Below are positions 24,274 through 29,353 of a stretch of 64,000 nucleotides of DNA, piece by piece. The stretch comes from Janthinobacterium sp. (GTDB taxonomy: Bacteria > Pseudomonadota > Gammaproteobacteria > Burkholderiales > Burkholderiaceae_D), in NCBI RefSeq assembly GCF_009923995.1, contig NZ_RFSK01000021.1:20582-84581 (forward strand). Reading direction: 5' to 3'. Position 1 is the stretch's first letter, and every line of letters starts with the position of its first letter. The notes beneath the pieces were generated by a model. It had not been told where the DNA came from, did not search any database, and saw only the letters and a program-made list of their open reading frames with translations. The position numbers and the translations under genes are program-made.

Positions 24274-24825
24274 TCAGGCCGCCAATTCGCGCGCGATGGC
24301 GTCGCGCAGGATCGCGTCGTCCACCGTCGTGTCGGGCGCAAAGCGTCCCACCACCTTGCCCTCCTTGCTGATCAAAAACTTCTCGAAATTCCACAGCACG
24401 TCGCCGGGATGTTCCTGCGTGATGCCGTAGCCGGCCAGCTTGGCGCGGAAATCGCTGCCCGGCTTTTCCTGCGCCCGCGGCTGCTCCTGCACGAGGCGCT
24501 GGTACAGCGGATGCTGGCCCGGCCCCTTGACGACGATCTTCTCAAACATGGGAAATTGCACGCCAAAGGTGCCGCGGCAAAAGTCCGCGATCTCGGCATT
24601 GCTGCCCGGTTCCTGGGCACCGAATTCATTGGCGGGAAAGCCGGCCACGACCAGGCCCTCGGCCTGCTTGTCGGCGTAGAGTTTTTCCAGCCCTGCGTAC
24701 TGGGGTGTCAGGCCGCAGGCGGATGCCACGTTGACCACCAGCACCACCTTGCCGCGATACGCGTCCAGGCTGCTGGAGTCGCCATTGATGCGGCGCAAGG
24801 GAATGTCGTAGATACTGTCGCTCAT
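24274..24825 (-). CDS. Glutathione peroxidase family protein (cysteine type)
   Basis: Thiol peroxidase of the GPx fold, about 183 residues. The peroxidatic Cys lies in NVASACGLTPQY (Cys, not selenocysteine). The catalytic tetrad partners are in FPANEFGAQEPG and WNFEKFLISKEG. The position that usually holds a resolving Cys (FPCNQFG) is Ala here, so reduction probably depends on another thiol or on glutathione. The start MSDSIYDIPL at 24825 follows GGGAGAACC; the track's extra 8 residues are unsupported. It lies 70 bp downstream of the flavoprotein reductase gene. Confidence 0.92.
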   Translation of the reverse strand: MSDSIYDIPLRRINGDSSSLDAYRGKVVLVVNVASACGLTPQYAGLEKLYADKQAEGLVVAGFPANEFGAQEPGSNAEIADFCRGTFGVQFPMFEKIVVKGPGQHPLYQRLVQEQPRAQEKPGSDFRAKLAGYGITQEHPGDVLWNFEKFLISKEGKVVGRFAPDTTVDDAILRDAIARELAA

Positions 24826-24895
24826 GATGGTTCTCCCTGGAAGAAACAACCATCATAGCCGCCCGCGCGCGAACGCGCTGGCGGCGCGAAAAAAC

Positions 24896-26235
24896 TCAGT
24901 AGACGTCGCGGCGGTAGCGCCCTTCGGCGGCCAGCGCGTCGAGCGCGGGGCGGCCCAGCATCTCCTGCAGGGCCTGGTCCACGCCGCCCGCCATGCCGGC
25001 CAGGCTGCCGCAGATGTAGATGGCGGCGCCCTGTGCCAGCCACAGCCTGACTTCGTCGGCATTGCCGCGCAGGCGGTCCTGCACGTAGGTGCGCTCCGCC
25101 TGGTCGCGCGAAAACGCCACGTCCAGGCGCGGCAGGTCGCCGCTCGCATGCCAGCCTTCGATTTCTTCGCGGTAATGGAAATCATGGGCAAGGTTGCGTT
25201 CGCCAAAGATCAGCCAGTTACGCCGCTGTCCCGCCAGCACGCGGCTTTTCAGGTGGCCGCGCAAGCCCGCGATGCCGCTGCCATTGCCGATCAGGATCAA
25301 GGGCCGTTGGGCATTGTCTTCCAGGCGGAAACGCCGGTGCTGGCGCAGGCGCAGCTGCACCACGTCGCCGACGGCCGCCTGCGCCGTCAGCCAGCCCGAG
25401 GCCAGGCCCAGGCTGCCGTCGGGATGCGCATGCTGGCGCACCAGCAAGTGCACACTGCCGTCGTGCGGGATGGAGGCGATGGAATATTCGCGCGGTTGCG
25501 CAGGATCAAGCGGCGCGGCCACCTGCACCAGGTCGCCCGACTGCCAGTCCGGCAAAGCGCCCGTCGCGGGCGCCAGTTCCAGATGATAGATGGCGCCCCC
25601 CGCGCTGCCGGGATTGAGCAGCTGCCTGTGCGCCAGGCGCCACTCGCCAAAGGCGGGCGCGCTCCAGTCGGGTGCGTCGCTGGTGCCGGCCAGGTGGCTC
25701 AGGTGCTGGAACCATTGCTCGATGGCGGCGCTGGCGCTGCGGTCAACTTCGATGCGCTCGAACAGGCGCGCGGCACCCTGCGCCGCCAGCCAGGCGTCCA
25801 GCGCGCGGCCAAAGCCGCAATACTGGCCATAGCTGCGGTCGCCCAGGGCGAGCACCGCGTAATGCAGTTGCGGCAGCGCAAGCTCGCCCGTCATCAGCCG
25901 GCCCATGAAGGCGGCCGCATTGTCGGGCGCGTCGCCTTCGCCATAGGTGCTGACCAGGAACAAGGCGCGCTCCGCTTGCTCCAGATCCGCGGCCGTCAGC
26001 TCGGCCAGCGGGCACAGGCGCACGGCAATGCCGGCCAGCTGCAGGCTCTGCGCCGTTTGCGTGGCCAGCTCTTCGGCATTGCCGTGCGCCTGTGCCCGCT
26101 GGCCGAGCTGACGGCCGCGGATCTGGAGCAAGCGGAGCGCGCCTTGTTCCTGGTCAGCACCAGGCACACGCCTGCATAGCTGAGTGACAGGGCGGCCAGC
26201 AAGGCCAGCCGCGTCGTATCGTGCGTAAAAATCAT
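24896..26235 (-). pseudogene. Membrane-anchored flavodoxin/NADPH reductase (CysJ-like), disrupted by an inverted repeat
   Basis: The downstream frame (24896 to about 26090) encodes most of a flavodoxin domain from GNAEELATQTAQSL, including LFLVSTYGEGDAPDN. A ferredoxin-reductase-like FAD domain (REYSIASIP) and an NAD(P)-binding domain (LILIGNGSGIAG, IYICGSLAGMA) follow, ending RRDVY. A different frame, from ATG 26235, encodes MIFTHDTTRLALLAALSLSY and a membrane helix, the expected N-terminal anchor. Between them lies a 78-bp inverted copy of downstream coding sequence. It shifts the frame and removes the start of the flavodoxin domain, including the FMN P-loop before TGN. As read, no full-length protein can be made. 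Only a GTG at 26167 opens the downstream frame. The rest of the gene is intact, so the lesion is recent or an assembly error. The ATG is 13 bp after the apbE stop, so the gene ends the operon. Confidence 0.85.
25946..26161. repeat. Perfect 88-bp inverted repeat with 40-nt spacer
   Basis: Bases 25946-26033 are the exact reverse complement of 26074-26161, checked base by base. The spacer is 26034-26073. In the gene's sense a short native inverted repeat, GGCAATGCCG and CGGCATTGCC, sits at the inner ends and could have seeded the event. The left arm is native coding sequence (VRLCPLAELTAADLEQAERA); the right arm is its misplaced copy. A hairpin this long should be hard to replicate, clone and sequence. 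Confidence 0.97.
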
Positions 26236-26248
26236 GGGAAATAACTAT

Positions 26249-27289
26249 TCATTCGTCGAGCATGGCCAGCAGCTGGCTGCTGAGAAATTCGCGGTAGCCT
26301 GCGCCGTCGCGCTGCAGGAAGCGCGCGGCCAGGCCCTGCTCTTCGGCCAGCGCCATGCCCGCTTCGGCACCGAGCACCGTCAGGGCCGTCGACCAGGCGT
26401 CGGCCGCCATGCATTCGGCATGCACGACGGTGACGGACGCGAGCTGATTGGCGATCGGCATGCCGCTGCGGGGATCGATGGTATGGGAAAAACGCGCCGA
26501 ACCGTCGTCATAGAAACGCCGGTAGTCGCCCGACGTCGCCACGGACAGGCCATGCAGCGCCAGCAGCATTTCCGCCGGATGCCGTGCATTATCGGCACTA
26601 TCGGCAGCGCCATCGACCTGTTCCAGCATGACCCACCACGGCTGGCCGTCGGGCTTGCTGCCTGCACCGCGCAGCTCGCCGCCCACTTCGACCAGGTAGT
26701 GATGGATGCCCTGGCTGTCCAGGTAGCGGGCCAGGCGGTCCACGCCATAGCCCTTGGCGATGGCGGACAGGTCCAGCTGCAAGCCGCCGGGCTGGCGCGC
26801 GCGGCGGGCCGGCAAGTCCAGTTCCAGGCGGCGGCGCTGACGCTGCGACAGCAGCAGGGCCACCGTATCGTCTTTCGGCGGCAGGAAGCCGGGCTGGTCG
26901 TAGCGGTTGCGGGGGCCGAAGCCCCACAGGTTGACGAGGGCGCCCGCGCACGGGTCATACGCGCCACCGGACGCCTGCGCCACATGCATGGCAAAGCCCA
27001 GCACCTCGCAGAAGGCGGCGGGCAGGCTGTGCCAGCTGCCCGCCTCGGCCCGGTTGAAGCGGCCCAGGTCCGAGTCCTCGTCCCAGTGGCTCATTTGCGC
27101 CACGACCAGGTCCAGCTGCTGCTGCAAGCCCTGCTGCAGGTCGGCGCTGCCGGCCCGGCCCGGCATGGCGGATTCCAGCAGGCGCACGGACCAGCTGGTG
27201 CCCATGGACAGGCCGCGCAAGTCCCGGATCGCGGCGCCGGGCGGCGCGACCTCATCGGAAATATGCTGGGGCAGCAGGACCCGGCGCAT
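26249..27289 (-). CDS. apbE: FAD:protein FMN transferase ApbE
   Basis: Transfers FMN from FAD to Thr/Ser of target proteins. About 346 residues. Conserved blocks: MGTSWSV near the N-terminus, GGAYDPCAGALVNLWGF, LDLSAIAKGYGVD, EVGGELRGAG and HTIDPRSGMPI. No signal peptide or lipobox is seen: the ORF opens at a TTG (27295) or, preferably, ATG 27289 (MRRVLLPQH), just after the DUF4198 stop. Many ApbE proteins are periplasmic lipoproteins, so this one may act in the cytoplasm. The likely target is the DUF2271 protein of the same operon. Confidence 0.93.
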   Translation of the reverse strand: MRRVLLPQHISDEVAPPGAAIRDLRGLSMGTSWSVRLLESAMPGRAGSADLQQGLQQQLDLVVAQMSHWDEDSDLGRFNRAEAGSWHSLPAAFCEVLGFAMHVAQASGGAYDPCAGALVNLWGFGPRNRYDQPGFLPPKDDTVALLLSQRQRRRLELDLPARRARQPGGLQLDLSAIAKGYGVDRLARYLDSQGIHHYLVEVGGELRGAGSKPDGQPWWVMLEQVDGAADSADNARHPAEMLLALHGLSVATSGDYRRFYDDGSARFSHTIDPRSGMPIANQLASVTVVHAECMAADAWSTALTVLGAEAGMALAEEQGLAARFLQRDGAGYREFLSSQLLAMLDE

Positions 27290-27315
27290 CGGCAAGCTGG
27301 CGAACGGACCGCCGC

Positions 27316-28140
27316 TTACTGCGGCAGCACTTCCACGGAAGCGGCGTAGGTGGCCCGGCGCTCCGGCATCACGGGCGGCTGGCCGGCCACGGCGGGGGCG
27401 GCCGCAGGCCAGGTGCTGCTCAGGTAATACATGCCGGCGGCCGGCACGGTGAACGTGATCTCGCCCTTGGCATCCGTGCTCTGGCGGATTTCACCGAGCA
27501 CGCCACGATAGCGCACGCCGCCCGGCACGAGGCTGAAGGCCTGGTTGGCGGCCGGCTTGCCGTCGATCAGGAAACGCCACGTGGCTTTCTCGCCCGCGCG
27601 CAAGTCGTTCGGATGGGTGACGGGCACGAATTCCAGGCCCACGCCCGTCGGCTTGAACACTTCCGTGCTCGTCTCGCCATTGCTGAAGAAGGTTTCCAGG
27701 CGCGCTGCCGTGCGCGTGACTTTCACATCCTTCGCATCGGCCGGCACGTCCTTCTTGAAGCTTTCCTCGTTGCCACGGAAACGCTTCTGCTCGCCGTTCA
27801 CCGTGTAGCTGCCCATCACGTTTTGCGACACGATGGCCGCCTTGTAGGTGCCAGGCTTTTCCATCTTCACGTCAAACACGCTGCGCAGGCGGCCCGTCAG
27901 GGTATTGGCCGGCGTGACTGGCGCGCCATCCGGGCCCGTCACCTGCAGCGCGTCCAGGCGCAGCGGCTGGTGGTCGATCTCGAACAGGCCGTCGGACACG
28001 GCCGCGTCCACCGTGACCCAGGCGTCCTTGCTTTCCACCATCGTGCTCGATGGCACCATCCAGCCGCGGTGGGCGTGGGCATTCATGGCCAGGCCGGCCA
28101 GGGCCAGGGCGATCAGCGGTTTATTCAGTTGCTTGAACAT
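27316..28140 (-). CDS. DUF4198 periplasmic protein
   Basis: A 274-residue exported protein. A Sec signal peptide (MFKQLNKPLIALALAGLAMN) ends AHA, so the mature protein begins HRGWMVPS, a histidine N-terminus that could bind a metal. The body is beta-rich (VFDVKMEKPGTY, GEITFTVPAAGMYYLSS), typical of DUF4198, a family often found near metal uptake genes. It lies between DUF2271 and apbE in the Fur-controlled operon. A role in iron or other metal handling is inferred. Confidence 0.87.
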   Translation of the reverse strand: MFKQLNKPLIALALAGLAMNAHAHRGWMVPSSTMVESKDAWVTVDAAVSDGLFEIDHQPLRLDALQVTGPDGAPVTPANTLTGRLRSVFDVKMEKPGTYKAAIVSQNVMGSYTVNGEQKRFRGNEESFKKDVPADAKDVKVTRTAARLETFFSNGETSTEVFKPTGVGLEFVPVTHPNDLRAGEKATWRFLIDGKPAANQAFSLVPGGVRYRGVLGEIRQSTDAKGEITFTVPAAGMYYLSSTWPAAAPAVAGQPPVMPERRATYAASVEVLPQ

Positions 28141-28152
28141 GATGGGGGCGCC

Positions 28153-28668
28153 TTATGGTTTGAGTTGGACGACGACATTGCCGAGTTCTTCCTTGCCCTT
28201 GCCAGGTACGGACTGGGCCGACTTCAGCGGCCACTGGAACGGCACGCGCACCAGTTCGCGTCCGCCCGCTTCGCGCGCCGCTTCCACCACGACCTGGTAT
28301 TCGCCGGCCGGCAACTTGTCCAGCAAGGCCTTGGCGCCGGGGAAGGTCAGGGTATGTTCACCGGGGGCGCGCGTGGCGCCGCTGACGCCGTCGACGGGCA
28401 TGGCCAGGTCGCGGCCGCTCTTGCGCCACCACTGGCGCATGTCCTTCAGCCATTTTTCGCCCGCCTTGTCCTTCTTCTTCACGTCGTACAGCACGGCCAG
28501 GTTGCCCACCACCTTCTGGTCTGCCGTTTCCAGCCATGCCGCCACGTATGGACGGTGGTATTCCGCCACGTTCAGTTGCGGAATTTCAATCTTGAGGGAC
28601 AGGTCGGCTGCCATCGCCGAAGTGCCGATCAGGGGAAGGCCAAGCGCCAGGGAGTAGCGTAATTTCAT
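28153..28668 (-). CDS. DUF2271 periplasmic protein with a candidate flavinylation motif
   Basis: A 171-residue exported protein with the signal peptide MKLRYSLALGLPLIGTSAMA cleaved before ADLSLK. The mature domain is DUF2271. It contains DGVSGATRAPG, which fits the D-x-x-S-G-A-T motif that ApbE modifies with FMN on Thr in FMN-binding domains. With apbE in the operon, covalent FMN attachment is likely, making this the extracytoplasmic flavin carrier of the module. The motif call is mine; from memory, genome surveys have linked DUF2271 to ApbE. Confidence 0.87.
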   Translation of the reverse strand: MKLRYSLALGLPLIGTSAMAADLSLKIEIPQLNVAEYHRPYVAAWLETADQKVVGNLAVLYDVKKKDKAGEKWLKDMRQWWRKSGRDLAMPVDGVSGATRAPGEHTLTFPGAKALLDKLPAGEYQVVVEAAREAGGRELVRVPFQWPLKSAQSVPGKGKEELGNVVVQLKP

Positions 28669-28699
28669 GGTGTGCCTGTAAAAAGAAGAATAAAAACGA

Positions 28700-29353
28700 T
28701 CAGTGAATAAACAGCAAGGCGATCGCGCAGGGTATCAAGATACCGAGGCCAACCATCGGCCAGGTAAATGGCCGGTTGGCCGCGTGGAACTTCAAAATCA
28801 GCAGGCCCGTCAGGCAAAACACGAGGCAGGCGCCGGCAAAGATGTCGATGAACCAGTTCCAGGCCACGCCCGTGTTGCGGCCCTTGTGGACATCGTTGAG
28901 CCAGGACACCCAGCCCCGGTCCGTCAATTCATATTCGGCGGCCCCGTCTTCCAGGCCGATGCGCACCCAGGCGTCGCCGCCCGCCTTGGGCAGCGGCAGA
29001 TACACTTCGTCCACGCTCCACTCGGCGGGACGGCCGCCCGCATTGAGCGACCATTGCTGCGCAAGCCAGCGCTCGGCGGCGGCCGGCAGGGGCGCGTTGG
29101 CGCCGTCGTGCTGGGCGGCAAAGGCGGCCAGTTGCGTGACCAAGGGGGCCGGCAGGGTCGCCTGCTGGCGCGTGATGGATGGCTTGGCTTCGATCTGGCT
29201 GGCGTGGTTCAGGGTGATGCCGGTAATGGCGAACAGAAACATGCCCAGCAGGCAAAGCGCCGAGCTGATCCAATGCCATTGGTGCAAATTCTTCAGCCAG
29301 ACGGCGCGGCTGGCGTTGTTCTTGGCCTTGTCGGCGGCGTCCGTCTTAGCCAT
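28700..29353 (-). CDS. PepSY-associated transmembrane protein
   Basis: A 217-residue inner-membrane protein. An N-terminal helix (about 28-50, HWISSALCLLGMFLFAITGI) starts after a short basic cytoplasmic tail. A periplasmic domain (about 55-165) follows, then two C-terminal helices (NWFIDIFAGACLVFCLTGLL and the final GLGILIPCAIALLFIH). The HQWHW and VHKGRN histidines resemble PepSY_TM/PiuB-type proteins, where histidines can bind heme. First gene of the operon; it probably passes electrons across the membrane. Confidence 0.85.
   Translation of the reverse strand: MAKTDAADKAKNNASRAVWLKNLHQWHWISSALCLLGMFLFAITGITLNHASQIEAKPSITRQQATLPAPLVTQLAAFAAQHDGANAPLPAAAERWLAQQWSLNAGGRPAEWSVDEVYLPLPKAGGDAWVRIGLEDGAAEYELTDRGWVSWLNDVHKGRNTGVAWNWFIDIFAGACLVFCLTGLLILKFHAANRPFTWPMVGLGILIPCAIALLFIH

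Follow-up and report, generated by a model that had tools for sequence, protein, structure and literature searches.

The question raised by this locus is how a long, perfect inverted repeat came to lie inside a reductase gene of Janthinobacterium, and whether it reflects a mutation in the bacterium or an artefact of library preparation or assembly. The window (the whole 64,000-nt stretch of DNA that was analysed) is part of contig 68 of a Janthinobacterium draft genome of 6.18 Mb in 154 contigs (completeness 100, contamination 0.42). The initial annotation described perfect 88-bp arms around a 40-nt spacer, which is confirmed, as 25946-26033 and 26074-26161 are exact reverse complements at 88/88 positions; when mismatches are allowed the repeat grows to 96 nt (97% matching) around a 24-nt loop, because the native spacer sequence is already weakly palindromic. 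The further remark that one and the same peptide is encoded by the two arms, on opposite strands, is correct but holds for any inverted repeat, and so adds no evidence; the native coding sequence is that of arm 1 only, not arm 2. Inverted repeats with spacers of up to 300 nt were counted in stretches totalling 1.82 of the 6.18 Mb, including the window (about 30% of the assembly), where the next longest perfect repeat has 21-bp arms; the longest perfect arms in 400 kb of a complete congener are 20 bp. The 88-bp exact match lies far above both maxima, and a chance origin is excluded.

The affected gene is on the minus strand, behind PepSY-TM-like, DUF2271, DUF4198 and ApbE genes, and its best-matching named relatives are from Janthinobacterium. 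It encodes a CysJ-like protein with flavodoxin and FAD/NAD(P)H reductase parts, 454 aa long in intact relatives; CysJ itself was rejected as the gene name, as the NCBIfam cysJ-type matches are all below threshold, and the description CysJ-like flavodoxin/NAD(P)H reductase is used instead. Across 24274-29353 the genes for the PepSY-TM-like, DUF2271, DUF4198, ApbE and flavodoxin reductase proteins stand in a row, followed by a glutathione-peroxidase-like gene; judging from the family names and general knowledge, we presume that this run suggests a membrane-linked flavin redox operon.

The ancestral state of the locus is provided by the orthologs, a comparison which the initial annotation had recommended for finding the missing native bases; 101 bp are absent and a 76-bp inverted copy is present instead. 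Between the conserved ...TGG and GGCAATGCCG (gene sense) there are exactly 101 bp in 29/29 aligned congeneric orthologs versus 76 bp in the window, and in a second, overlapping set of named loci the length is again 101 bp for 15 of the 17 Janthinobacterium records, the search pattern having matched neither the remaining two nor the more distant genera. Reverse-complemented, the 76-bp tract is identical to codons that lie just downstream in this gene. Expressed in terms of the four-point model of template switching, the descendant segment is thus the reverse complement of nearby ancestral sequence, both flanks are colinear with the 29 orthologs, and the ancestral, repeat-free sequence is known from the congeners. 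The structure before and after the event, the homologies at its two junctions and the frameshift can be read directly from the following features:

25946-26033 (gene sense minus): arm 1, which is native and served as donor; covers the reductase codons from CGGCATTGCC to those for LFLVST, which follow the FMN loop, colinear with 29/29 orthologs; arm 2 is its exact reverse complement.
26034-26073: spacer of 40 nt, native coding sequence colinear with the orthologs, which would form the loop.
26074-26083: native half of the seed, 10 bp, reading CGGCATTGCC on the plus strand and GGCAATGCCG in gene sense; its partner is at 26024-26033.
26084-26159: inverted copy of 76 bp, the reverse complement of arm 1, in place of 101 native bp (101 bp in 29/29 orthologs).
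26160-26161: microhomology of 2 bp at the outer junction, CC (GG in gene sense), the last bases common to the native flank (...GTGTGCCTGG) and the copied tract.
25996-26235 (minus strand): predicted frameshifted product of 79 aa from the native ATG; 25 native residues, then missense and a stop.
24896-26167 (minus strand): remnant open frame of 423 aa with a nominal GTG start; what is left of the flavodoxin/FAD-NAD(P)H reductase, lacking the FMN loop and the hydrophobic segment at the N-terminus (454 aa in the intact ortholog).

The arms do not differ at any position over 88 bp, while the best identity of the same stretch in relatives is about 89%; the event therefore long postdates the divergence from the nearest species compared, unless later conversion kept the arms identical.

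A seed at the inner ends of the arms had been proposed in the initial annotation and is indeed present, the inner junction being a 10-bp inverted homology, GGCAATGCCG/CGGCATTGCC; homology at the outer junction amounts to only 2 bp (GG in gene sense). The GGCAATGCCG half is common to most relatives. The second half in most relatives is CGGCATTCCC or CGGCATCCCC, one or two bases off the perfect seed (26024-26083). Both halves are perfect in relatives L017 and L011, which carry the normal 101-bp gene and no inverted copy and so share the same potential hotspot; among the remaining relatives, those with both halves located have 6-9 of 10 seed matches. Folding of the 60-nt seed regions as single-stranded DNA gives -18.5 kcal/mol for the window (shuffles, -10.0 +/- 2.1) and -17.6 and -19.7 kcal/mol for L017 and L011; values for three relatives without the perfect seed are -11.2, -11.2 and -14.6 kcal/mol. 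In agreement with quasipalindrome-type mutation, the inverted homology existed before the first switch, as it is native in L017 and L011, and the breakpoints follow the order 3-2-1-4 in the plus direction, for which an intra-strand switch is possible under the published rule (PMC7954356).

The repeat is probably the product of a recent, real and strain-specific template-switch mutation, whichever route was taken. The earlier interpretation, in which a nascent strand folded back and copied itself, is supported by the native seed and by the replacement of 101 bp with a 76-bp inverted copy, and fold-back is considered the likelier route. The plus strand (antisense to the gene) would have been under synthesis when its nascent 3' end, at ...CGGCATTGCC, left the template; the freed end would have paired with GGCAATGCCG 40 nt back on the same strand and been extended by 76 nt with its own sequence as template. 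The strand would then have rejoined the original template beyond 101 bases left uncopied, with at most 2 bp (CC) as a guide, and the outcome would be the perfect 88-bp inverted repeat, a -25 frameshift and the deletion of 101 native bp. We infer that this took place in vivo, and by intra-strand fold-back rather than by an inter-strand switch. Of the two majority patterns by which single inverted repeats arise, 3-2-1-4 is one; it permits intra-strand switching since point 2 is before point 1 (PMC7954356). At quasipalindromes in E. coli the accepted mechanism is that the nascent strand templates itself (PMC7202029). Furthermore, the 10-bp homology at the inner junction and the minimal homology at the outer one favour fold-back priming as the initial step and the return as the later one. 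In the complete genome G001 dnaA is at base 13 and the locus, which has the same orientation, lies at 5.02 of 6.31 Mb; should this synteny hold, fold-back might have occurred on the lagging strand. Template switching occurs on both strands in E. coli, where drug-induced events favour the leading strand (PMC6357072), and a lagging-strand fold-back would therefore count against the preferred explanation.

An inter-strand switch in the order 1-4-3-2 is a variant of this explanation and is compatible with a template-switch mutation as such, yet it is rather unlikely to have been the route. The gene-sense strand would leave its template at GG, use the opposite strand of the fork as template, starting from downstream, and come back at the 10-bp homology, which would give an identical product; orders 3-2-1-4 and 1-4-3-2 are both common (PMC7954356), and the synthesis would be on the leading strand given synteny with G001. 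However, the switch would have only 2 bp of homology for its initiation, whereas fold-back could readily be primed by the 10 bp of inverted homology at the inner junction. The 2-bp outer junction also bears on the suggestion that the repeat arose in the laboratory, where the end of a single-stranded fragment could fold at the 10-bp seed and fill in to its own 5' end, producing a blunt 216-bp hairpin molecule that enters the contig. Chimeric reads with inverted repeats are documented from both sonicated and enzymatically fragmented libraries (PMC10908179), where the artefact calls are, however, low-frequency variants. The draft state of the genome (154 contigs) is in keeping with this origin, and so are the arms, which would be perfect and exactly symmetric in a filled-in hairpin; nevertheless, such an origin accounts for one junction only. 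An overlap or k-mer assembler should not join separate pieces over 2 bp, and the outer end of arm 2 continues into the correct native upstream flank over a homology of just that length, too short for such a join. In addition, no other perfect inverted repeat longer than 21 bp was found in the 1.82 of 6.18 Mb searched (spacer of up to 300 nt), by which a systematic artefact such as amplification chimeras is rejected, although a single isolated artefact is compatible with the result. This uniqueness together with the 2-bp outer junction favours a real, recent mutation, and an artefact is quite unlikely.

A long perfect inverted repeat could in principle be a functional element selected at its site, such as a regulatory hairpin, an invertible switch or the end of a mobile element; this has scarcely any probability. 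The repeat is missing from every relative examined, sits in a coding frame that it breaks, and has no second copy in the genome; the gene itself is the source of both arms. All three kinds of element were rejected on the basis of the repeat-free relatives and the gene-derived arms.

Template-switch mutation, the preferred reading, places the locus among known systems; the mechanism is known (quasipalindrome or template-switch mutation), the repeat is not a new genetic element, and what is new is a large and very clean example. In the E. coli thyA and lacZ quasipalindrome reporters (PMC7202029, PMC6357072) the nascent strand likewise templates itself and an imperfect inverted repeat becomes perfect; however, a few bases are corrected there in a short (e.g. 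18-bp) quasipalindrome, whereas in the present case copying ran for 76 nt past a 10-bp seed, with the loss of 101 native bp. The four-point model of Loytynoja and Goldman (PMC7954356) describes the same arrangement, L->1, 2->3 reversed and 4->R, in which the orders 3-2-1-4 or 1-4-3-2 leave one new perfect inverted repeat; it was applied to great-ape genomes, while the present case is bacterial. PDSM fold-back library artefacts (PMC10908179) are similar in that the end of a strand pairs with itself or with a similar strand to give inverted-repeat chimeras, but these are low-frequency reads with one junction, in contrast to the present consensus, where two junctions return to the correct locus. 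Neither a report of this locus nor a catalogue of template-switch mutations across bacterial genomes was found in the open-access literature.

With the ancestral state, seed, copied tract and return point all legible from the sequence, this is an unusually clear natural case. If real, it demonstrates that a wild bacterium can lose the function of a gene when short-range template switching replaces about 100 bp, and it provides a quasipalindrome, naturally present in two relatives, with which rates of fold-back could be tested; should it be an artefact, it cautions that products of fold-back can end up in a draft consensus. A broader proposal is possible but somewhat doubtful: that bacterial replication may, starting at a natural hairpin of 10 bp, carry out a fold-back replacement of about 75 nt in one step, with a 2-bp return, and that the resulting 216-bp interrupted palindrome may persist despite SbcCD genes. 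If this were true, comparison of close species could expose fold-back replacements as an overlooked cause of gene inactivation. The genome contains sbcD, which scores above the cut-off, with an adjacent full-length sbcC-like frame of 1253 aa that falls below the E. coli-type cut-off. With these genes present some instability is to be expected of a long perfect palindrome, and its persistence is slightly surprising, which is counted against the template-switch explanation; the 40-nt spacer should lessen this instability, the effect of spacers on palindrome stability being a general principle (PMC7999016).

The loss of 101 bp and gain of 76 bp is a net change of -25 bp, which shifts the frame; translation from the native ATG (26235) would reach a stop after 79 aa (25996). 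The initial annotation held that the start of the flavodoxin domain had been replaced, and this is upheld: the FMN loop YASQTG is lost from the reductase, and the Pfam flavodoxin match starts at profile position 7 in the window frame versus position 1 in relative L017. The 423-aa remnant frame retains most of the enzyme without the start of the flavodoxin domain and the N-terminal hydrophobic segment. From the frameshift, the 79-aa product and the loss of the FMN loop and N-terminus, the reductase is very probably inactivated; the remainder of the gene is open to its native end, which fits a recent event. An intact paralog of 912 aa is encoded on contig 83 (L073:6724-9462), in which PepSY-TM, flavodoxin and FAD/NAD(P)H reductase parts are fused. 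It keeps the loop motif, as YASQSGQAE, and might cover the loss of the broken reductase; with this full-length paralog present, such a loss may be tolerated.
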